Positions 1 to 54,605 of a stretch of DNA of 64,000 bases are shown piece after piece (positions within the stretch are counted from its first letter, which is position 1; each line of letters starts with the position of its first letter). Source of the DNA: Parapedobacter soli (lineage in GTDB: Bacteria > Bacteroidota > Bacteroidia > Sphingobacteriales > Sphingobacteriaceae); assembly GCF_025460835.1 (NCBI RefSeq), contig NZ_JAMXAY010000015.1:1-64000 (forward strand), written 5' to 3'. The notes below the pieces were generated by a model. That model worked only from the letters and a program-made list of their open reading frames with translations, was not told where the DNA came from and ran no database searches. The translations under genes were made by a program, and so were the position numbers.

Positions 1-181
1 GACTTCAAAAAAGAAATATTGGGCTTTTTAAGGGTTGACTAAATAGGTCCACTTGATGTTCAATTCTGAATAAAGAGGTGATACCGCCGGCTAACATGCC
101 GATAACCAGTATCGTTGTGATGGTTCGAAAAGCAATAATCCGCGCAGTGGAGGCCGTCATTCTGATGATGTCTTTTCCCAT
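1..181 (-). CDS. DoxX-like membrane protein, N-terminal part (short, possibly frameshifted)
   Basis: Reading leftwards from an ATG at 181 gives about 58 codons with one clear membrane segment (ITTILVIGMLAGGITSLF) and a charged N-terminus, which resembles the start of short DoxX-like quinone-related membrane proteins. The frame meets TGA at 7-5, just after a run of six T (plus-strand A). The residues before it (PLKSPIFLF) look like the start of the second DoxX segment, so a homopolymer frameshift is possible and the gene may continue off the left edge. An ECF41-type promoter lies 40 bp upstream (222-247), which supports real transcription. The family call is by resemblance only. Confidence 0.45.
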
Positions 182-219: not shown

Positions 220-295
220 AAGACGTTGTCAATGATTACTTGTGACAAAAAAGCCGGCTTTTTATGACAAGTGCCGTAATTTTTCGGGATTTACC
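220..295. repeat. Imperfect direct repeat, copy 1 (with 3078-3158)
   Basis: About 75 percent of positions match copy 2 over 76-81 bp. Shared blocks include AAGACGTT, TTGTGACAAAA, TGCCG and GGGATTT. This copy contains an ECF41-type promoter and the last codons of the sigma-factor gene (the NPEKLRHLS end). Confidence 0.75.
222..247 (-). promoter_or_regulatory. ECF41-type promoter before the DoxX-like gene
   Basis: On the minus strand TGTCACA (247-241) is followed after exactly 15 nt by CGTC (225-222). The motif reported for ECF41 sigma factors, as I recall it, is TGTCACA, about 16 nt, CGTC. The expected transcript start is about 30-35 nt before the ATG at 181. The same arrangement recurs at 3080-3105. 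Confidence 0.7.
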
Positions 296-1125
296 AAGTA
301 ATATATATTGGCGATTTTAGCATCCTCACCAATATCTATGGCAATCAACGCATCGGGAGACTTGCCGTCATGCTGGTGATAAAACGCTGCACCGCTCAGT
401 CCATTTATAGATAGGAAGTCCATTTTATCATAAGCCGGCCCACGCTTCGCGCTCCCGGTCAGTAACTTCACGACGTCGCTCTTCCCCGATAAGGGCATTA
501 AGATCGCAGGGGCATTTCCGCCACCATCTGCATACGCCGTTACGTCGTCGCGTAGCAATCCGATAATTTTCTCCAAATTTCCGCTTAAGCAAGCATCCAG
601 AAATTCCCGGAGGATTTTTTCGTGCTCGCCGGCATCAACGGTAAACCTGCTTTTTTCCAATAGCAATTTCTTCTTCGCACGATGGAAATATTGCCTGCAT
701 TGATCTTGGGTAATTTTAAAAATTTCGGATATGTCGGTATATGGAAGGTCGAAAGCCTCTCTTAGAATCATAACTGCCCTTTCTATCGGGGTGAGTTTTT
801 CCAACAAGTAAAGGAATCCGATGGACAGTCTGTTCTTCGGATCCTCTTCCGCTGGGTCTAAAGCCGATTGAACAGGTTCGGGCAGCCATGTTCCAATATA
901 GTTTACTCTTTCTTTTTTAAGCTTCCTTAAGTGGGAAATGCATTTGTTGCTGATCGTACGTATCAGATAAAACTTCACGTTCTTAACGTGCGACTTATCC
1001 GATTCCATCCAGCTCGCATAGGTTTCCTGCACCATGTCTTCTGCGTCCGAAACCATGCCCAGCATATTGTAAGCAATGGAAAAAAGCATGCCCCTATACT
1101 GGTCGATCTCTTCTTTTTGTAACAT
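262..1125 (-). CDS. ECF41-family RNA polymerase sigma factor with fused SnoaL-like domain
   Basis: An alternative sigma factor of 287 aa. Region 2 covers residues 10-75 and has the SDAEDMVQETY core helix. Region 4 covers about 105-160, and a SnoaL-like C-terminal extension covers about 165-287. ECF41 proteins lack a separate anti-sigma factor and are controlled by this extension; its family signatures are both present, DGGG at 200-203 and NPEKL (family NPDKL) at 279-283. It is the last gene of a tight leftward set (osmC, EthD, cupin, GNAT, sigma) whose upstream promoter carries the ECF41 motif, so autoregulation is likely. ECF41 genes are commonly linked to redox or DoxX/carboxymuconolactone-type genes, which fits this context. 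The inducing signal cannot be read from sequence. Confidence 0.9.
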   Translation of the reverse strand: MLQKEEIDQYRGMLFSIAYNMLGMVSDAEDMVQETYASWMESDKSHVKNVKFYLIRTISNKCISHLRKLKKERVNYIGTWLPEPVQSALDPAEEDPKNRLSIGFLYLLEKLTPIERAVMILREAFDLPYTDISEIFKITQDQCRQYFHRAKKKLLLEKSRFTVDAGEHEKILREFLDACLSGNLEKIIGLLRDDVTAYADGGGNAPAILMPLSGKSDVVKLLTGSAKRGPAYDKMDFLSINGLSGAAFYHQHDGKSPDALIAIDIGEDAKIANIYYLVNPEKLRHLS

Positions 1126-1132
1126 GGGCTAT

Positions 1133-1570
1133 CTATTCATCGTTAAAGGCCAAATGTGCATCGGGACAATAGATTTCCAGTATATTGGATGGATCCGCGA
1201 GGTCCTCAAATTGAAATTGACGATACAGGCCATGTGCATCGCTTGTATTGAGCATCTTTCTTCTTAGACGCCGGAACCAGGGCTGCTCGGTAATATAGGT
1301 TAGCATTTTTTTGGAAACACCCTGCCCCCGATAAGCAGGCAATACAAAAAAATCGGCAACCCATCCAAACGTATGGTAGTCGGTGACGATCCTTACAAAC
1401 CCGACCTGTTTGTCGTTTAAAAAGGCTCCAACACAGCATGAATGCGTCAGCGAACGGTCTACCGTATCAAAGGAAATACCCCTGGCCCAATAGGAGTCTT
1501 CCGTCAAGAAGCGATGGATCATGGCAACATCCATATATGCCTTACCTGTTTTGATGGTTACTTCAAGCAT
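1133..1570 (-). CDS. GNAT-family N-acetyltransferase
   Basis: 145 aa, the usual size for a single GNAT domain that transfers an acetyl group from acetyl-CoA to an amine. The central strand FGWVADFFVLPAYRGQGVSK includes the acetyl-CoA pyrophosphate loop (YRGQGV, residues 80-85, fitting Q/RxxGxG). A C-terminal segment (HGLYRQFQFEDL) matches motif B. The acceptor is not predictable. The gene ends 7 nt before the ECF41 sigma-factor start and follows the cupin gene after 52 nt, so it probably belongs to the same stress operon. Confidence 0.85.
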   Translation of the reverse strand: MLEVTIKTGKAYMDVAMIHRFLTEDSYWARGISFDTVDRSLTHSCCVGAFLNDKQVGFVRIVTDYHTFGWVADFFVLPAYRGQGVSKKMLTYITEQPWFRRLRRKMLNTSDAHGLYRQFQFEDLADPSNILEIYCPDAHLAFNDE

Positions 1571-1622
1571 ATTTATTGAATGACACTGAAAAGATTAACA
1601 TAAATACTCAATGAATGCATAC

Positions 1623-2030
1623 TTACATGGTTGATTCAAACCACTTTACAATCGACGGCATGTTTCTTTCAAAACCACCCGGAATGAAAAAATTCAGCAC
1701 CCCCGCTTTGCTTCGTGTTCGGTTGGAAAAATCATGGGTTGTTTTAGCAGGTATCCTGACGAATGTCCCTTTTTCTGCATCAATCCACCGGTCTTCCACC
1801 AAAATGGAGACCGTACCTTCAAGCACATAAAAGATTTCGTCGTTTGCCTCGTGCTGATGTGCTCCGACACCCTTTTCATCGGGTTCAAGCCACCATTCCG
1901 AAATACTGTACTTTTCTGCCGTTTCTTGCTCATCGGCTTTAAAAATGGCCGTCATCGTACCGAAATCATAGCGCCTACCGCGTCCTGCTTTTAAAACCAA
2001 AGCGTCCTGACAGTTGTTCTTATGGTCCAT
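1623..2030 (-). CDS. Single-domain cupin protein
   Basis: 135 aa with one cupin beta-barrel. Motif 1 is HQHEANDEIFYVLEG, giving the H-x-H and downstream Glu metal ligands, and motif 2 contains the His of THDFSN. Small cupins of this type bind a divalent metal and act in diverse oxygenase, isomerase or sensing roles, so no substrate is proposed. It lies 9 nt after the EthD lipoprotein gene in the leftward operon ending with the ECF41 sigma factor. A stress or aromatic-compound role would fit the neighbours but is inference. Confidence 0.85.
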   Translation of the reverse strand: MDHKNNCQDALVLKAGRGRRYDFGTMTAIFKADEQETAEKYSISEWWLEPDEKGVGAHQHEANDEIFYVLEGTVSILVEDRWIDAEKGTFVRIPAKTTHDFSNRTRSKAGVLNFFIPGGFERNMPSIVKWFESTM

Positions 2031-2039
2031 GGCTAATCG

Positions 2040-2474
2040 TTACTCGTTTGTGGTGGCACGTATTCGTTGTTTAATTTCATTAATCTGTATAATTGGCTGT
2101 ATATTCGTATAATTCTTAAAATCATTAATAATTATATCCCTGTTTTGCGCTATCGCTTTATTATATTCAGCAATATCTTTAATATAAAAATAACCGATGG
2201 CCACAAATGGCGCTTCATCATTAACCGTCCTGCCTGAAATGCCGTTATCAATCTCGTAAAATTCCAGATTCTGCCCTAAAAGCCCGGCCACCATAGGCAT
2301 ATGCTTTTTTTCGTAATAGTCAATGTCAAAGGTCTTATCTTCTCCATTAGGATAAAGTATAACTACTTTAAACATTCCAGCCTCCCGGGCAACGGAACGT
2401 TTCAATTGCCCACTTTTGCAACTTATTAGCCCGAATAAGGCCAGGCATAACGATAGAAATTTTAGTTTAATCAT
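2040..2474 (-). CDS. EthD-domain lipoprotein
   Basis: 144 aa. Residues 1-19 form a lipoprotein signal (FGLISC, predicted lipidated Cys19). The rest matches the EthD/ferredoxin-like fold: VVILYPNGEDKTFDIDYYEKKHMPMV has the Y-x-x-x-H-M-P motif, and VAIGYFYIKDIAEYNKAI is the second half. EthD proteins are small dimeric alpha-beta barrel proteins linked to ether or aromatic degradation and generally work in the cytoplasm, so the lipid-anchored form is unusual. The gene lies between osmC (40 nt upstream) and the cupin gene (9 nt downstream). Confidence 0.8.
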   Translation of the reverse strand: MIKLKFLSLCLALFGLISCKSGQLKRSVAREAGMFKVVILYPNGEDKTFDIDYYEKKHMPMVAGLLGQNLEFYEIDNGISGRTVNDEAPFVAIGYFYIKDIAEYNKAIAQNRDIIINDFKNYTNIQPIIQINEIKQRIRATTNE

Positions 2475-2514
2475 ATTGGAAGCTTATTTAGTTACACGGT
2501 CCTAGGGTCGTCTT

Positions 2515-2985
2515 CTATTTTACAGCCACTTTCGGGTGATGTCTTACCGGAAAGTTTACGGAATTAGCAATAAAGCAAAGCTCATTCGCTTTTTTATGCA
2601 ATTCGATGGCTTTATCAATCATATTCGATTCCTTCACCGTTACGCTTGGATGAAGCGTCACCTCAATGAATTGCCCACCGCCGTTTGACGTTTCAACCAT
2701 AACTCCTGTTGCATTGTCTTTATAAGCGGTCACGATGATCCCTGCGCCTGAACACAGATGCAGATACCAAAGCATGTGGCATGAAGATAGCGCCGCGACT
2801 AAGAGGCCCTCCGGATTATATTTGTGCTTATCCCCAAGAAAAGCGGGGTCGGCTGATCCCAGGATTTCAGGTTTGTTTTCCTCATTAATCCGATAACTCC
2901 TCTCGTAGCCGCTATAATGACTGGTGCCTGCTCCAGTATTTCCAGTCCATTCAATTGTTGTCTGATATTGATGTCGATCTTGCAT
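2515..2985 (-). CDS. OsmC/Ohr-family thiol peroxidase
   Basis: 156 aa OsmC-like protein expected to reduce organic or fatty-acid hydroperoxides using two cysteines. The peroxidatic Cys69 lies in AALSSCHMLWYL and the resolving Cys137 in ANELCFIANSVNFPV; the 68-residue separation and flanking residues fit the family. It is the first gene of the leftward operon and has an ECF41-type promoter at 3080-3105. The leader from the predicted start point to the ATG is about 90 nt. Its position as lead gene suggests the ECF41 circuit responds to peroxide, quinone or thiol stress. Confidence 0.9.
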   Translation of the reverse strand: MQDRHQYQTTIEWTGNTGAGTSHYSGYERSYRINEENKPEILGSADPAFLGDKHKYNPEGLLVAALSSCHMLWYLHLCSGAGIIVTAYKDNATGVMVETSNGGGQFIEVTLHPSVTVKESNMIDKAIELHKKANELCFIANSVNFPVRHHPKVAVK

Positions 2986-3077
2986 AATTAGTGAATGATG
3001 CCATTTACCTTCTCCTGCCGTATATTTTTTGTCGTCATTTTTTATTGATTTCGCCGATTAATGACTTAATAACTATA

Positions 3078-3158
3078 AAGACGTTATCAACAGTGATTTG
3101 TGACAAAAGATAAGCTGTTTTTTTCGTGGCAAGGTGCCGCGGTTCTTAGGGATTTGCC
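3078..3158. repeat. Imperfect direct repeat, copy 2 (with 220-295)
   Basis: Second copy of the 80-bp element, carrying an ECF41-type promoter before osmC. Read on the minus strand it also encodes N-P-stop-E-P-R-H-L, matching the NPEKLRHL end of the ECF41 sigma-factor gene in copy 1. It is therefore likely a relic of a second sigma-factor 3' end, now supplying the last residues and stop of the YfiT gene. Confidence 0.7.
3080..3105 (-). promoter_or_regulatory. ECF41-type promoter before the osmC operon
   Basis: On the minus strand TGTCACA (3105-3099), 15 nt, then CGTC (3083-3080), the same spacing as the copy at 222-247. It is placed to drive osmC, EthD, cupin, GNAT and the sigma-factor gene itself, forming a positive feedback loop. 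Confidence 0.7.
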
Positions 3159-3664
3159 CTAGACACTAATCTTATATGCGCCAAATGGTGCTTGCAATGC
3201 CATGCATACAGGGCAACAACTTCACCCAACGGAACTGGCCGTCCGTGTTCAGGGTGGACATACGCCCTTTTCAGATCCCCGTCATCGAGGCTTTCAAGCA
3301 ATATGCCCCATCTTTCGTGTAATCCTTTTAAAAGACTCAACGAGGGTGCCAGATGAGTCGTGCTGTCAGGCAATGCTGCCCACAGTGCCTCTCGATAGGG
3401 CTTGATTACCGGATTTGTTTCTGTAAGCGCTAATTTAAAACGTATAAAGGCATTCATGTGGCTGTCCGCACAATGATGGACGACTTGCCTTACCGTCCAT
3501 CCGTCTTTTCGGTAGGGGGTATCCAACTGTTCATCCGTCAATGACAGGACCTCCTTGTTAATTTCCTGCGGGAATCCAGCTATCACCCCTATACAACTCG
3601 AAAGTTCCTGCTTAGTGATGAGTTTCGGCTTTTTAAACCGTCCGATAGGGTATCTTAAGTCCAT
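3146..3664 (-). CDS. YfiT/DinB-family putative thiol (bacillithiol) transferase
   Basis: 172 aa four-helix DinB-superfamily protein starting MDLRYPIGRF; an upstream in-frame ATG at 3706 would add 14 low-complexity residues and is less likely. The three-His metal site typical of YfiT/BstA appears in VRQVVHHCADSHM and WHCKHHLAHI. Characterised relatives are Zn- or Ni-dependent bacillithiol S-transferases that detoxify electrophiles. The last residues (ANP) and stop codon come from repeat copy 2, so the C-terminus may have been altered by recombination. The gene reads towards the ECF41-controlled operon, but the repeat with its promoter separates them. Confidence 0.85.
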   Translation of the reverse strand: MDLRYPIGRFKKPKLITKQELSSCIGVIAGFPQEINKEVLSLTDEQLDTPYRKDGWTVRQVVHHCADSHMNAFIRFKLALTETNPVIKPYREALWAALPDSTTHLAPSLSLLKGLHERWGILLESLDDGDLKRAYVHPEHGRPVPLGEVVALYAWHCKHHLAHIRLVSRANP

Positions 3665-4106
3665 AGTCTCTGTGTCTGTCTCGTGTCTCATCCTACCGCT
3701 TCCCATTCATTTTCCAAACGGTTCGTTCTCCATATGTGTAACAAGGTAGAGTATTTTATTTGAAAACCCATATTTATTATCGTACCAGCTAATACAGATT
3801 ATAGACCATAAGCTCCCAGGGCAAACAATAAATCAAGCCTTTTTTCTTTTACTGCTTAAACCTCATCAAAAATGTACCTACCTGAATAGTATACTTAAAA
3901 GTAGGTGTTGTTGCGTATTATACCAAGATTTATGCATGAAGCCTACCTCATGGCTATACAACCACTTCTACAATGCTAAGCGGACTTGCGTCCCTGGATT
4001 TAAGCGGGTACAACTCGCCGCTGAAACACTCGAAAAAGGACAATCCAAGCAGGACAATTACCGACACCCGAACCATCCGGCTACTGACTTCGTGGGTCCG
4101 AAATTT
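3665..4106. other. 442-bp gene-free region with an operator-like element
   Basis: No convincing gene was found on either strand. At 3875-3908 there is a cluster of symmetric elements: TACCTACCT, the 8-bp palindrome AGTATACT (3888-3895) and AGTAGGTG. TACCTAC and GTAGGT form inverted arms around the central palindrome. This resembles a regulator-binding site that has lost its gene. The remaining 3940-4106 segment codes only for short, unconvincing frames. Confidence 0.5.
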
Positions 4107-4742
4107 TTATTCCCCCATGCTCAATAGCTCAATGTTGTTCCTGTTCAGTTTAATCTTGCCCTCGTTTTCCAACGCCTTCAAAAGCCTTGAAACCACAACG
4201 CGTGAACTGTTCAGTTCGTAGGCAATTTCTTGATGTGTCTTGTTTATCGTTTGGGATGAATTGATTTTACTTGTTTCCAAAAGATAATGGTAAAGGCGTT
4301 TATCCATGTTCATGAATGCAATATTGTCAATCGCCGCCAACATCTCGTTAAACCGGTTATGGTAACTCATGAATACGAATGCCCTCCAGGTTTGGTAGTT
4401 ACCCATCCAAGATTCCATATAGTTTACCGGGATCATGGCCACCAAACCATCGGTTTCAGCTACTGCCCGGATCTCGCTTTTCTTATCGCCCATACAGCAC
4501 GCAAGGGTCATGGCACAGGTATCTCCCTTCTCAATAAAATACAACAACAATTCTCCTTCATCAAAGTCTTCACGCATGATTTTTATCGCTCCGTTAATCA
4601 GCAAGGGCATCGTCTTGATGTAGTTCCCAATGTCGATCAGCACTTCTCCTTCCTTAAATTCCACCAACTTGGCTACCGATGAAATCTCATCAATCAACGC
4701 CGTCTCGAAAATGGGGCCATACGTATCCTTGATTATCTTCAT
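4107..4742 (-). CDS. Crp/Fnr-family transcriptional regulator of the sulfide locus
   Basis: 211 aa from the ATG at 4742; a GTG at 4751 is an alternative start. It has an N-terminal cNMP-binding-like beta-roll (about 10-115), a long dimerisation helix, and a C-terminal winged helix with recognition helix NSSRVVVSRLLKALENEG. In the beta-roll the segment DTCAMTLACCMGDKKSEIR places Cys76, Cys82 and Cys83 close together, which suggests thiol, persulfide or metal sensing rather than cAMP binding. The gene is divergent from the TauE exporter, and the 309-bp gap holds two copies of a GTAAC-based operator motif that recurs before the persulfide dioxygenase. Regulation of that locus is inferred from site placement. 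Confidence 0.85.
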   Translation of the reverse strand: MKIIKDTYGPIFETALIDEISSVAKLVEFKEGEVLIDIGNYIKTMPLLINGAIKIMREDFDEGELLLYFIEKGDTCAMTLACCMGDKKSEIRAVAETDGLVAMIPVNYMESWMGNYQTWRAFVFMSYHNRFNEMLAAIDNIAFMNMDKRLYHYLLETSKINSSQTINKTHQEIAYELNSSRVVVSRLLKALENEGKIKLNRNNIELLSMGE

Positions 4743-4906
4743 ATTTAACACGCTAAATTATTGTAATCCTTTCCTAAAACACAAAGTGAAGCATACGAAT
4801 ATAACGCTCTCCACGTCAATATTTGCCTATTGTGGCATCATTTTATTATAAAAACCATTACCATTCAATATGCGTTGTAAAGCTAATGATTAACGAAAAA
4901 TAGATG

Positions 4907-4923
4907 GGTAACAAATGTTACCG
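4907..4923. promoter_or_regulatory. Crp/Fnr-like operator, site 1
   Basis: GGTAACAAATGTTACCG, a near-perfect dyad (GGTAAC, 4 nt, GTTACC). It is the most symmetric of three related 17-bp motifs and lies between the divergent Crp/Fnr and TauE genes, 62 bp before site 2. Confidence 0.7.
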
Positions 4924-4984
4924 ATACAACGTTTCGTGGTTAGTTCTGGCCATTTCCTACGAAAAAAGTAAAAAACAACCGCTG

Positions 4985-5001
4985 TGTAACACATGTAACT
5001 G
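4985..5001 (+). promoter_or_regulatory. Crp/Fnr-like operator, site 2
   Basis: TGTAACACATGTAACTG matches site 3 at 15 of 17 positions. It starts exactly 37 bp before a -7-like box at 5022, so it would be centred near -41, the usual class II activator position. No TTG -33 box is present, which fits activator dependence. Confidence 0.7.
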
Positions 5002-5021
5002 ACCAGCTTTTTGGATTGGTG

Positions 5022-5029
5022 CAGATTTG
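5022..5029 (+). promoter_or_regulatory. -7 box of the TauE-SQR promoter
   Basis: CAGATTTG, one mismatch to the Bacteroidota TAnnTTTG consensus, 22 nt before the ATG at 5052 and 37 nt from the start of operator site 2. Confidence 0.5.
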
Positions 5030-5051
5030 TACCCTAAATCAGAAGCATGAT

Positions 5052-5846
5052 ATGGAAATAGCTGGTTATATATCGTCCATTTTAATAGGTGTTGCTCTTG
5101 GTCTCGTCGGCGGAGGGGGCAGCATTCTTACTGTACCTGTCCTTGTGTATCTTTTTAACATTGATGCTGTGATGGCTACGGCGTATTCACTTTTCATAGT
5201 AGGTAGTACCAGTATTGCAGGGTCATTCTCCTATTTCAAAAAGGGGTTGGTCAATATTCGGACCGCTATTGTATTCGGTATCCCGTCCATAGTTGCCGTT
5301 TATCTCACCAGAGCTTACATTGTTCCCACCATTCCGATCGAGATATTCACTTCCGGTGATTTTACCTTCACCCGAAGTATGTTACTCATGGTACTGTTCG
5401 CCATTTTGATGATCGCGACTTCCTTTAGCATGATTAAAAAGAAGAAAGAAGTGGTGGAAGAAGTTTCACAAGCACAAAGGTTCAATTATCCCCTCATATT
5501 GATTGAGGGAACCGTAGTCGGAATCTTAACGGGTCTTGTCGGTGCAGGCGGGGGCTTCCTCATCATTCCTGCGCTTGTTCTGCTCAGTAAATTGCCGATG
5601 AAAGAGGCTGTTGGTACTTCATTGGTCATCATTGCCGCAAAATCACTGATCGGCTTTTTCGGAGAAAATAATGAAACCCCAATGGATTGGACATTCCTGT
5701 TGGTCATAACCGTATTCGCCATTATCGGAATTTTTATCGGGATGGTATTGTCAAAGAAGATCGATGGAAACAAACTCGAACCTGCATTTGGTTGGTTTGT
5801 GCTGGTTATGGGCATATATATCCTGATTAAAGAAATTTGGCTATAA
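5052..5846 (+). CDS. TauE/SafE-family sulfite/organosulfur exporter
   Basis: 264 aa integral membrane protein with about 8 predicted segments in two homologous halves. Each half has the family's glycine-rich loop, GLVGGGGSILTVPVLV near the N-terminus and GLVGAGGGFLIIPALV in the middle. I take the ATG at 5052 (MEIAGYIS) as the start, because the longer frame begins at TTG 5016 and would overlap the predicted promoter. TauE/SafE carriers export sulfite, sulfoacetate or related anions. Placed directly before sulfide:quinone oxidoreductase and persulfide dioxygenase, it probably removes sulfite made by persulfide oxidation, as TauE does in cst operons. Confidence 0.9.
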   Translation: MEIAGYISSILIGVALGLVGGGGSILTVPVLVYLFNIDAVMATAYSLFIVGSTSIAGSFSYFKKGLVNIRTAIVFGIPSIVAVYLTRAYIVPTIPIEIFTSGDFTFTRSMLLMVLFAILMIATSFSMIKKKKEVVEEVSQAQRFNYPLILIEGTVVGILTGLVGAGGGFLIIPALVLLSKLPMKEAVGTSLVIIAAKSLIGFFGENNETPMDWTFLLVITVFAIIGIFIGMVLSKKIDGNKLEPAFGWFVLVMGIYILIKEIWL

Positions 5847-5856
5847 AAATATTACC

Positions 5857-7116
5857 ATGATGAAAACACATTATCAAATACTGATAGTCGGAGGCGGAAC
5901 AGCCGGTATCATGACCGCTGCTAAACTGCGAAGAATGAAAAAAGGGTTACAGCTTGCCATTATCGAACCCTCGGAAACCCATTACTATCAACCTGCTTTT
6001 ACATTGGTTGGAGCAGGTGCGTATAAAATGGAAAAGACGAAGCGGCAGGAAGCCACCCTCATCCCAAAAGGAGTCGATTGGATCAAAGATAAGGTGAATG
6101 GGCTATCGGCAGAAAAAAACCTTGTCTCGACCAAAAATAGCGGCAATTTTTCCTATGATTATCTGGTGCTTGCACCCGGGCTTATCTACGATATGTCGTT
6201 GATAGAGGGGCTGTCTGAAGCATTAGACAAGGGTGTTGTATGCAGCAATTATATCGACCCCGAATACACTTGGAAACTGTTGCAGAAGTTCAAAGGAGGC
6301 AATGCCATCTTTACACAGCCGGCAACACCGATCAAGTGCGGCGGAGCACCGCAGAAGGCGATGTACCTTGCGGCCGATCATTTCAAAAAACAGGGGATTT
6401 TGGACAAAACGAATATTGTATTCGCCACGCCGGGAACGGTTATTTTTGGAGTAAAGACCATTGCGGATACCTTGACGAAGGTGATCAATCGTTATGGTGT
6501 CGATCTACGTCTATATCATACACCGGTAAAAATCGATCCGGAACGTAAACGGGTATATTTTAAGGATAATACACCCGATGCTTCAAAAACATCTTTGTCT
6601 CCCATTATAGACAGTGCTGCCCGCGATGGAGGTCTTATTGAAGTTCCATTTGATTTTCTGCATCTCGCTCCACCACAGGTACCCCCACCGTTTATCCGTG
6701 AATCAAAGTTATCCAATGAAGATGGGTGGTTGGATGTCGATATAAACAGTCTGCAACACAAAAAACACCCCAACATTTTCGGCCTTGGTGATGCGACAGG
6801 GGTCCCTACCGCTAAAACCGGAGCGGCAATCCGTAAACAAGTACCCGTGGTTGTCGACAATATTCTTTCACTCATCAAAGGAAAAGAGGCAAACAACAAA
6901 TCCTATATGGGTTATTCATCGTGTCCTTTGGTAACCGGTTACGGAAAGATGACTTTGGCCGAGTTCAACTACAAAAACGAATTTACCCCCGACCCCATGC
7001 TGAAGTACATGCTCATCAACGACAGTGACAAAGAACATTGGCGATTGTGGATACTAAAAAAATACATGCTCCCCTATATGTACTGGAATAAGATGATGAA
7101 AGGAAAAGACATTTAG
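5857..7116 (+). CDS. sqr: Sulfide:quinone oxidoreductase, type II
   Basis: 419 aa FAD flavoprotein that oxidises H2S to a persulfide and passes electrons to quinone. The N-terminal Rossmann motif is ILIVGGGTAGI (8-18). The two redox cysteines appear in the same settings as in human mitochondrial SQOR: Cys161 in TPIKCGGAPQK and Cys356 in YSSCPLVTGYG. The C-terminal amphipathic segment (LPYMYWNKMMKG) also matches the type II membrane anchor. The gene starts 10 nt after the TauE gene and is almost certainly cotranscribed with it. An ATG one codon later is an equivalent start. Confidence 0.93.
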   Translation: MMKTHYQILIVGGGTAGIMTAAKLRRMKKGLQLAIIEPSETHYYQPAFTLVGAGAYKMEKTKRQEATLIPKGVDWIKDKVNGLSAEKNLVSTKNSGNFSYDYLVLAPGLIYDMSLIEGLSEALDKGVVCSNYIDPEYTWKLLQKFKGGNAIFTQPATPIKCGGAPQKAMYLAADHFKKQGILDKTNIVFATPGTVIFGVKTIADTLTKVINRYGVDLRLYHTPVKIDPERKRVYFKDNTPDASKTSLSPIIDSAARDGGLIEVPFDFLHLAPPQVPPPFIRESKLSNEDGWLDVDINSLQHKKHPNIFGLGDATGVPTAKTGAAIRKQVPVVVDNILSLIKGKEANNKSYMGYSSCPLVTGYGKMTLAEFNYKNEFTPDPMLKYMLINDSDKEHWRLWILKKYMLPYMYWNKMMKGKDI

Positions 7117-7127
7117 CTGACAGCTAG

Positions 7128-7144
7128 TGTAACTAATGTAACTG
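7128..7144 (+). promoter_or_regulatory. Crp/Fnr-like operator, site 3
   Basis: TGTAACTAATGTAACTG, 12 nt after the sqr stop codon. Its start is exactly 37 bp before the TAAATTTG box at 7165, the same geometry as site 2, and again there is no -33 TTG. Confidence 0.75.
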
Positions 7145-7164
7145 TACAGGTAGCATAAGTAACA

Positions 7165-7172
7165 TAAATTTG
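7165..7172 (+). promoter_or_regulatory. -7 box of the persulfide dioxygenase operon
   Basis: TAAATTTG, a perfect match to TAnnTTTG, 40 nt before the ATG at 7213. With operator site 3 it forms an internal promoter, so the dioxygenase part can be expressed separately from tauE-sqr. Confidence 0.65.
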
Positions 7173-7212
7173 CAGTATTGAAAGAATAATTAATCATTAA
7201 AAATAAAGGACT

Positions 7213-8604
7213 ATGTTTTTTGAACACATTTATGATAAGAGTTTGGCACAGGGCAGTTACTTGGTAGGCTGTCAGGTCACGGGCGAAGCAATCGTAATAG
7301 ATGCCCAAAGAGATATAGATGTATATCTTGACATTGCAAAGCAGAATAACCTCCGCATCACGCACATTGCCGAAACTCACATCCACGCAGACTTTCTTTG
7401 CGGTTCAAGGGAATTGGCTGCCGTTACAGGAGCAACAATGTACCTTTCGGACGAGGGAGGCGAAGATTGGCAATACCAGTTCCCGCACAAGGGTCTGAAA
7501 CACGGCGATGTGATTAACATAGGCAACCTCACGTTGGAGGTAATGCACACGCCCGGACATACGCCCGAAAGTATCAGCTTTCTTTTGACCGACCATCCGG
7601 CCACCGATAAACCGGTTATGGTATTTACCGGAGATTTTGTCTTTGTCGGTGATATCGGTCGTCCCGATCTCTTGGAGAAAGCCGCAGGGCTTATCGGTAC
7701 GAAGGAAAAGGGAGCGAAACAGATGTATCAGTCACTCCAACGATTTGCCGAATTGCCCGAATACGTACAGGTATGGCCCGCACACGGTGCAGGTTCGGCT
7801 TGTGGGAAAGAACTGGGGGCCGTGCGGAGTTCGACAGTCGGTTACGAAAAAATCCGCAATTGGGCGTTCCAATATGGCGAAGACGAAAAAGGATTTACCG
7901 ATTACCTGTTAGCCGGCCAACCTGAACCGCCGAAATATTTTGCGATGATGAAGCACCTCAATAAAGTGCCTCGTACGTTATTGGTCGAAGTGCCGAAACA
8001 TCCGAAATTGAACAAAGAGCAGTTTCTTTCAGCATACGAAAAAGGCATTAAGGTCATAGACACCCGCAACAAGGTGGATTTTGCCAACGGTTTTATTCCC
8101 GGAAGTCTCAACATTCAAGGTAACAACTCTTTTTCTACATGGTGCGGTTGGCTGTTGAACTATCAGGAACAGTTTATATTGGTAGCCGATGGCAGCCAAA
8201 TGGAAGACTTGACCCGTAAGCTGATGCGTATCGGCTTGGATAATATTTACGGTTACATTTCAGAAATCAATGATTTGGGCATTGAGCTACAAACAGCAGA
8301 CGTGATTTCTTTGGACGAGTTTAAAACCTACGTCGGAAAAGATAATGTACAGATAGTGGATGTTCGGGGAATCACTGAATATGAAGGCGGACACGTAGCC
8401 GGTGCGGAAAGTGTTTTTGTCGGGACACTGCCAGACAATCTGGATAAAATCAGTAAGGGCGAGCAGGTAGTCATTCATTGTCAGGCTGGCGACCGCTCGA
8501 CGATAGCTTATTCTATTCTTGCCAAAAATGGATTTGAAAACGTAAAGAACTATTCCGGTGGCATGAAAGAATGGAATGAGAAAGAAAACGAAGTAGTAAA
8601 ATAA
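7213..8604 (+). CDS. Persulfide dioxygenase-rhodanese fusion (CstB-like)
   Basis: 463 aa, three domains. Residues 1-250 are an ETHE1-like metallo-beta-lactamase fold with HIHAD (56-60), His116, Asp141 and His191, the mononuclear Fe(II) set of persulfide dioxygenases, plus Cys197 in HGAGSACGKELG, the position of a reactive Cys in staphylococcal CstB. Residues about 265-350 are a rhodanese-like domain with an atypical loop. Residues about 365-463 are an active rhodanese with Cys423 in the loop CQAGDRS. Expected chemistry is oxidation of low-molecular-weight persulfide to sulfite and transfer of sulfane sulfur to sulfite or thiols, giving thiosulfate. It works downstream of SQR. Confidence 0.92.
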   Translation: MFFEHIYDKSLAQGSYLVGCQVTGEAIVIDAQRDIDVYLDIAKQNNLRITHIAETHIHADFLCGSRELAAVTGATMYLSDEGGEDWQYQFPHKGLKHGDVINIGNLTLEVMHTPGHTPESISFLLTDHPATDKPVMVFTGDFVFVGDIGRPDLLEKAAGLIGTKEKGAKQMYQSLQRFAELPEYVQVWPAHGAGSACGKELGAVRSSTVGYEKIRNWAFQYGEDEKGFTDYLLAGQPEPPKYFAMMKHLNKVPRTLLVEVPKHPKLNKEQFLSAYEKGIKVIDTRNKVDFANGFIPGSLNIQGNNSFSTWCGWLLNYQEQFILVADGSQMEDLTRKLMRIGLDNIYGYISEINDLGIELQTADVISLDEFKTYVGKDNVQIVDVRGITEYEGGHVAGAESVFVGTLPDNLDKISKGEQVVIHCQAGDRSTIAYSILAKNGFENVKNYSGGMKEWNEKENEVVK

Positions 8605-8940
8605 ATGAGTGATATTATGTTCGGATTATTCAAAGACAAGCTGGCCGATACAGAGAACGACCAGTTGGCTGATGAAATTAAAAACGGTGCCTTCTTGGTA
8701 GATGTCAGGACATCACAGGAGTTTGCCGGAGGTTCGGTGAAAAATGCCGTGAACATCCCATTAAATCAACTGGAAACAAGCCTCGATAATTTTAAAGGAA
8801 AAAAAGCCATCGTGGTATTCTGCCAGAGTGGAAGCCGCAGTGGACGTGCAAAACGTATCCTTGAAAAGCACGGCTTCCAACAGGTCGTTAATGGTGGTGG
8901 CTGGCGCAGTTTAAGCAAGTTGGTGAACAGCATCACATAA
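8605..8940 (+). CDS. Single-domain rhodanese
   Basis: 111 aa sulfurtransferase with the loop CQSGSRS (catalytic Cys near residue 74) and the CDC25-like start LVDVRTSQEFAGGSV. The ATG follows the preceding stop codon with no gap, so translation is probably coupled to the dioxygenase-rhodanese gene. It probably moves sulfane sulfur between SQR-generated persulfides and acceptors. In other bacteria such a domain is fused to a small membrane domain (YgaP); here that partner is the next, separate gene. Confidence 0.9.
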   Translation: MSDIMFGLFKDKLADTENDQLADEIKNGAFLVDVRTSQEFAGGSVKNAVNIPLNQLETSLDNFKGKKAIVVFCQSGSRSGRAKRILEKHGFQQVVNGGGWRSLSKLVNSIT

Positions 8941-8966
8941 GTAAGAAGCTAACTAAAAGGACAAGA

Positions 8967-9206
8967 ATGAGAGATTATATAAAAAATTGGACATTAATGC
9001 GCGCGCTGAGGCTCATCATCGGTGTCGTTATTGTTATACAGGGTGCATATGAATCGCAATGGATTCTTTTGGGACTTGGTGCCATCTTTTCCCTTATGCC
9101 CCTTTTCAATATAAGCATGTGCGGTGTTGGAGGGTGTGAAGTGCCGCAGCATAGACCTAGTCGCCGTATAACGGAAGATGTAAACTACGAGGAAGTAAAT
9201 AAATAA
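8967..9206 (+). CDS. Small DUF2892/YgaP-type membrane protein
   Basis: 79 aa with two hydrophobic segments (LRLIIGVVIVIQGAYES and ILLGLGAIFSLMPLF) followed by NISMCGVGGCEVP, whose two cysteines (C-x4-C) are typical of the family. YgaP consists of a rhodanese followed by this type of membrane hairpin, so the pair 8605-9206 looks like a split YgaP that holds rhodanese activity near the membrane. The charged C-terminal tail is cytoplasmic or periplasmic; this cannot be decided here. It lies 26 nt after the rhodanese gene in the sulfur operon. Confidence 0.8.
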   Translation: MRDYIKNWTLMRALRLIIGVVIVIQGAYESQWILLGLGAIFSLMPLFNISMCGVGGCEVPQHRPSRRITEDVNYEEVNK

Positions 9207-54014: not shown

Positions 54015-54605
54015 ATGAAGACATACACATTACTCACGGACGAAGTACTGGCCGATTTGGTCAAAGCGCAGGATACCCACGCCTATACCGAACTTTACCA
54101 GCGATACTGGGGCGTATTACACCGCTTTTGCCACCACCTGCTCCGTGATGAGGCGCAGGCCACCGATACCGTGCAGGATGTATTCGTTCATTTCTGGGAA
54201 AACGCCCCGCAGCTGGAGCTGCGTTTTTCACTAAGCAGCTACCTCTATGGCGCGGCCCGCAACCAGGTTATCCGGTACATCCGCAAGGAAAAAGTAAAAG
54301 CCAGCTACCTCAGTCAGCTTCAATTCGATGAGGGGCAAGTCATTGCCGATGAAGAACTCCGCATTTCGGAACTCGAAAAACTGGTTGAACGCGAAATCGA
54401 AAACCTGCCGCCGCGTATGCGCGAAGTATTCGAGCTTAGCCGCAAAGCCTACCTCTCGCACAAGGAGATTGCCGACCGATTGGACATTTCAGAAGGCACC
54501 GTAAAAAAGCAAGTGTCCAACGCGTTGCGCCTCCTTCGTGCCAAGCTGGGGTGCGCGTTCTTCTTCGGCGTTATGCAGGTGATCTGGTGGTGGTACGGGC
54601 TATAA
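54015..54605 (+). CDS. Orphan ECF sigma factor (Bacteroidota FecI-like)
   Basis: 196 aa. It has sigma region 2 (YTELYQRYWGVLHRFCHHLLRDEAQATDTVQDVFVHFWE) and region 4 (LPPRMREVFELSRKAYLSHKEIADRLDISEGTVKKQVSNALRLLRA). Start ATG 54015; a GTG at 53994 overlaps the promoter. Members of this group normally pair with a FecR anti-sigma factor and SusC/SusD genes directly downstream, but here a PIN toxin gene follows on the opposite strand, so the partners are elsewhere or lost. The C-terminus ends in a hydrophobic Trp-rich stretch (VMQVIWWWYGL). Confidence 0.9.
   Translation: MKTYTLLTDEVLADLVKAQDTHAYTELYQRYWGVLHRFCHHLLRDEAQATDTVQDVFVHFWENAPQLELRFSLSSYLYGAARNQVIRYIRKEKVKASYLSQLQFDEGQVIADEELRISELEKLVEREIENLPPRMREVFELSRKAYLSHKEIADRLDISEGTVKKQVSNALRLLRAKLGCAFFFGVMQVIWWWYGL

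Follow-up and report, generated by a model that had tools for sequence, protein, structure and literature searches.

The window (the whole stretch of DNA that was analysed, i.e. the first 64 kb of contig C57 in a genome of 5.17 Mb and 177 contigs) begins with a group of leftward genes, whose features are collected in Table 1. Read leftward from a promoter-like site that we call P2, these genes are osmC, those of an EthD-family protein, a small cupin protein and a GNAT acetyltransferase, and finally an ECF41 sigma gene, with gaps of 40, 9, 52 and 7 nt between them. The original prediction had placed this five-gene series behind P2, and the genes are indeed colinear and all leftward, with nothing longer than 52 nt between neighbors. 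All five would be co-transcribed from P2, from osmC down to the sigma gene. One -33/-7-like match was seen inside the operon, at 1366-1398, and could supply a second promoter for the sigma gene. A second promoter-like site, P1, faces a DoxX-like gene, of which the window contains just the start.

Other parts of the window may be mentioned here. A gene for a YfiT-type bacillithiol transferase (3146-3706, minus strand; NF009807 above its cut-off) lies next to P2 and extends with its last codons into the decayed sigma 3' end described below. The region 4107-9206 encodes a Crp-family regulator followed by a TauE/SafE-like permease, a sulfide:quinone-oxidoreductase-like protein, a persulfide dioxygenase-rhodanese fusion, a rhodanese and a small membrane protein; it looks like a sulfide/persulfide detoxification cluster, the names beyond that of the regulator being read by eye. 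A further ECF-type sigma gene, devoid of the ECF41 extension, is found at 54093-54542 on the plus strand.

Table 1. Features of the ECF41 locus at the start of the window
Feature	Position	Strand	Remarks
End of multicopy insertion sequence, also contig end	1..41	.	12 exact genome copies of last 24 bases
DoxX-like gene, first 47 codons only	42..181	-	named after relative P0001
P1, TGTCACA-N15-CGTC promoter-like site before DoxX-like stub	222..247	-	-10 end to ATG 41 nt
ECF41 sigma gene	262..1125	-	WLPEP, DGGG, NPEKL; Ser at position 64
GNAT acetyltransferase, operon gene	1133..1570	-	PF13508, PF00583
Small cupin protein, operon gene	1623..2030	-	PF07883
EthD-family protein, operon gene	2040..2474	-	TIGR02118; lipoprotein-like signal peptide LFGLISC read by eye
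osmC, OsmC-family protein, first operon gene	2515..2985	-	PF02566
16-codon reading frame MTTKNIRQEKVNGIIH	2988..3038	-	ends 2 nt before osmC ATG
P2, TGTCACA-N15-CGTC promoter-like site before osmC	3080..3105	-	-10 end to ATG 95 nt
Decayed copy of ECF41 3' end	3106..3165	-	ANP*EPRHLAT vs NPEKLRHLS; overlaps YfiT-like gene 3' end

The sigma factor displays sigma-70 regions 2 and 4 in the ECF arrangement (PF04542, PF08281). Its best curated model is TIGR02957 (ECF41/SigJ type), matched over the full model length with 282.6 bits, which is below the curated cut-off of 323.25; the second ECF41 protein of the genome, encoded on contig C3, likewise stays below this cut-off with 229.6 bits. The WLPEP motif in the linker and the DGGG and NP[DE]KL motifs in the C-terminal extension of ~100 residues are invariant across seven aligned ECF41 proteins. 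The ECF41 assignment had originally been made from DGGG and NPEKL, which are both present and to which WLPEP and the TIGR02957 match can be added. Moreover, the sequence of the SigJ structure 5xe7, with its fused SnoaL_2 domain, matches the protein over its full length (E=1.7e-33), and a Pfam search at E 0.001 did not report a SnoaL domain. The best matches among ~800 sampled Bacteroidota genomes reach 42% identity, which is similar to the identity with members from other phyla. A scan of genome contigs with this single protein did not find a close orthologue, and a quick tree placed it on a deep branch, outside every small clade. Altogether, judged by its sequence, this sigma factor is a divergent member of ECF41.

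We then consider the two sites. TGTCACA-N15-CGTC occurs at exactly the two predicted positions and nowhere else in the window, i.e. two occurrences for 0.12 expected, a count reached by 2 of 100 shuffles. Genome-wide, TGTCACA-N14-17-CGTC has eight exact matches, among which only P1 and P2 are intergenic and face a start codon according to ORF positions. A pattern of 28 nt, derived from the two copies and searched with 3 mismatches allowed, retrieved only P1 and P2 from the 5.17 Mb, and its reversed control retrieved none. The sigma gene is less than 2 kb away from either site. One could argue that they are chance sequences with no sigma-factor function, since looser versions of the motif are found at background level throughout the genome: TGTCACR-N15/16-YGTY yields 23 sites for 20 with the reversed pattern and, apart from P1, P2 and the site before the CMD-like gene on contig C3, these fall within genes or have no convincing start downstream. 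However, P1 and P2 are intergenic, unique and adjoining an ECF41 gene, and relatives have matching promoters, so that we regard a chance origin as highly improbable. The TGTCACA/CGTC form and the matching promoters beside ECF41 genes in relatives both fit the proposal that these are ECF41-type promoters, which the sigma factor of the window would recognize. The genome scan that had been suggested as a source of further targets thus gave a count at background, and a wider regulon is for this reason unsupported.

The regions around P1 and P2 resemble each other well beyond the motif. Their local alignment extends over ~190 nt with a score of 82, while 2,000 dinucleotide shuffles gave at most 45. 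When the motif was left out, the 80 nt upstream aligned with an anchored score of 35, and none of 2,500 AT-matched random window pairs exceeded 25; the downstream score of 18 was matched by 13 of 2,500 AT-matched pairs and by none of 2,500 unmatched ones. The similarity can also be read in the encoded peptides. Upstream, it lies in the sigma 3' end, where NPEKLRHLS on the P1 side is matched by ANP*EPRHLAT on the P2 side. Downstream, it covers the start of the DoxX-like gene, of which the 16-codon frame in the osmC leader is a probable decayed counterpart. These alignments indicate that P1 and P2 are paralogous copies of one duplicated segment. Their identical N15 spacing is thus inherited from a single duplication, and is no independent evidence for the regulon that it had been taken to mark.

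It can be asked whether P2 still works. Copies of the duplication share 129 of 187 flanking positions (~69%), whereas all 11 motif bases are unchanged, an outcome with a chance of ~0.02 at the flank rate by our own calculation. This suggests, although it does not prove, that selection kept both sites. The same figure bears on the view that P2 is a little-active relic of the duplication and that ordinary promoters drive the osmC operon and the sigma gene. Such a view would account for the decayed surroundings of P2 and for the remnant of a gene start in its leader, and the -33/-7-like site within the operon could serve it; on the other hand, it leaves the intact motif unexplained, and relatives keep a sigma gene and its target under a promoter of this type. 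We therefore hold it to be unlikely, and favor P2 as a working promoter.

The situation at P1 is different. Twelve copies of the initial 24 bases of the window are present in the genome, and the five copies examined share their sequence up to GGGTTGACTA, then diverge; positions 1-41 are for this reason read as the terminal part of an insertion sequence. As the junction falls at position 41, the part that belongs to the DoxX-like gene amounts to 47 codons. Among the matches listed, most copies of this insertion sequence lie at contig ends, and many breaks of the assembly are probably caused by them. Pfam did not recognize the 47-residue stub, and its name is supported by the relative P0001 from the same genus, which with its 143 residues is a full-length DoxX_2 protein (E=1.5e-17) and shows 43% identity to the stub over 37 residues. 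A search of the genome for the missing half returned, besides the stub itself, just three other DoxX_2 genes, all of them full-length. In the same-genus genome L183, the DoxX-like relative (1465 onward) is located directly behind a gene for a 411-residue sigma factor (162-1397), putatively of group ECF42. If active, P1 would now drive transcription of the stub into the insertion sequence. Each site had been predicted to precede a leftward gene, which stands for P2 with its intact osmC, but at P1 the supposed DoxX-like target is interrupted in this strain. What is left of the regulon first proposed is a likely promoter for one operon, plus its duplicate in front of a broken gene.

Promoters at other ECF41 loci give a basis for comparison. 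In the sampled family, the sigma gene is usually found beside a CMD-like gene, with TGTCAC-N16-TGTC before one or both; in the family and in other phyla, TGTCAC-N16-[CT]GTC precedes CMD-like and sigma genes, and distant members of the phylum share TGTCACA-N16-CGTC with other phyla. A spacer of 16 is near universal among these comparators. The 15-nt spacer, at the edge of the published range of 16 +/- 1 (PMC3426412), is nevertheless a recurrent variant within it. Indeed, the three closest relatives of the sigma factor (L043, L044 and L072; ~40% identity) have TGTCACA-N15-GGTC just before a CMD-like gene that is followed by the sigma gene; at locus L204, TGTCACA-N15-TGTC precedes a cytochrome-b561-like gene that converges with the sigma gene; and a 15-nt spacer is also present at one of two Roseibium sites. 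The -10 element of P1 and P2, CGTC instead of the GGTC of the closest relatives, counts against our explanation. Published knowledge of ECF41 in Bacteroidota is scarce, as had been stated (2 of 373 proteins in the set of PMC3426412), but candidate promoters are easy to identify in relatives. The osmC operon was not seen adjoining ECF41 in any of the sampled relatives, and consequently P2 does not have orthologous conservation as support. OsmC homologues in the genus (62-66%) do not adjoin ECF41 either and carry no such promoter.

The first base of the -10 element goes with a single residue of the sigma factor, position 64 in window numbering. The rule was derived from ECF41 proteins for which an N16 promoter could be detected. 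Asp was associated with CGTC at all 14 loci, and 21 of 22 loci with Asn had TGTC or TGTT, the remaining one being a CGTC whose -35 was poor; GGTC was in addition matched three times where the residue is Asn. Because the rule came from these data, it was tried on a held-out set of 16 previously unused plasmid loci. A promoter could be detected at ten of them; all nine with Asp had CGTC, and the one with Asn had TGTC. The counts ignore kinship between loci, although Bacteroidota, Chloroflexota, Actinomycetota and Pseudomonadota each contain both residue types. For many ECF41 proteins, one residue would thus predict the -10 element. This link may already be known, and Todor et al. (2020), according to the account in PMC8103513, published a residue-to-base code that applies to ECF promoters in general. 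Most ECF41 proteins have Asp or Asn at this position, while the window sigma factor and that of L204 have Ser, and the nearest relatives of the former combine Asn or Asp with GGTC. The rule does not, for these reasons, cover the lineage of the window, and with Ser64 it cannot predict which promoter this sigma factor recognizes.

This leads to the question of which sigma factor acts on P1 and P2. The other ECF41 gene of the genome has the classic target, a CMD-like (carboxymuconolactone-decarboxylase-like) gene, and the second sigma factor could use these sites alone or jointly with the local factor, giving cross-regulation instead of simple feedback. Its own promoter, however, is TGTCACA-N16-TGTT, where both the spacer and the -10 are unlike those of P1 and P2, and its position 64 is an Asn, elsewhere paired with TGTC/TGTT. 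This possibility consequently appears improbable to us, and we retain the local sigma factor as the candidate user of both sites.

On this basis, we propose the following explanation, which we consider likely as a whole: the locus would be an autoregulated ECF41 module, whose two promoters stem from one duplicated segment and whose DoxX-like gene was cut by an insertion sequence. An ancestral segment made of the sigma 3' end, the promoter and the start of the DoxX-like gene was duplicated to give P1 and P2. Beside P2, the sigma tail and probably the gene start decayed, while the promoter elements of both copies stayed identical; P1 would formerly have driven the DoxX-like gene, until the insertion sequence severed it after 47 codons. 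At present, the sigma factor would recognize P2, at the start of a transcript that ends in its own gene, hence a positive feedback, which may be restrained by its own C-terminal, putatively SnoaL-like extension as in the ECF41 proteins studied. The locus is probably functional, and osmC-EthD-cupin-GNAT-sigma probably constitutes an autoregulated ECF41 operon. From OsmC, a role of the module in peroxide or electrophile stress could be envisaged. A bolder hypothesis would be that a Bacteroidota ECF41 lineage changed its promoter code, with a spacer one base shorter and the Asp/Asn replaced, and that in this genome a copy of its promoter, duplicated along with the sigma 3' end, brought a new operon under its control; we put it forward tentatively and find it rather doubtful. 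ECF41 factors are widespread with few known targets, the published ones being mostly single COE genes. The locus would thus be a specific case of a different ECF41 target operon in Bacteroidota, and it still shows how duplication of the end of a sigma gene, promoter included, spread a copy of that promoter.

No COE gene neighbors the sigma gene of the window, its neighbors being osmC, EthD, cupin and GNAT. COE genes were the sole detectable targets in two species, but more than 30% of ECF41 genes lack a neighboring COE gene (PMC3426412), which is hence usual and not required. Furthermore, an ECF41 factor of Azospirillum controls motility and lateral flagella, as cited in a review (PMC8999054), and non-COE targets therefore have a precedent. 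Compared by sequence alone, the sigma factor resembles Mycobacterium tuberculosis SigJ (PDB 5xe7), an ECF41 protein with a fused SnoaL_2 domain. It shares its sigma group and the -35 of its promoter with the second ECF41 system of the genome, from which it differs by only 34% sigma identity, by the CMD-like target of the latter and by its N16-TGTT. The CMD-ECF41 operons of the three closest relatives are nearer, with the same -35, the same 15-nt spacer and the sigma gene last in the predicted operon; unlike the window, they combine a GGTC -10 with a single CMD-like target. Finally, as for the ECF41 systems of Bacillus licheniformis and Rhodobacter sphaeroides (PMC3426412), we find a WLPEP linker, conserved C-terminal motifs, no anti-sigma gene and a TGTCACA/CGTC promoter before the target gene, with possible co-transcription of the sigma gene. 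In contrast to these two systems, the promoter of the window is duplicated and has a spacer of 15 instead of 16, and the predicted targets are osmC, EthD, cupin and GNAT in place of a carboxymuconolactone decarboxylase, an oxidoreductase or an epimerase.
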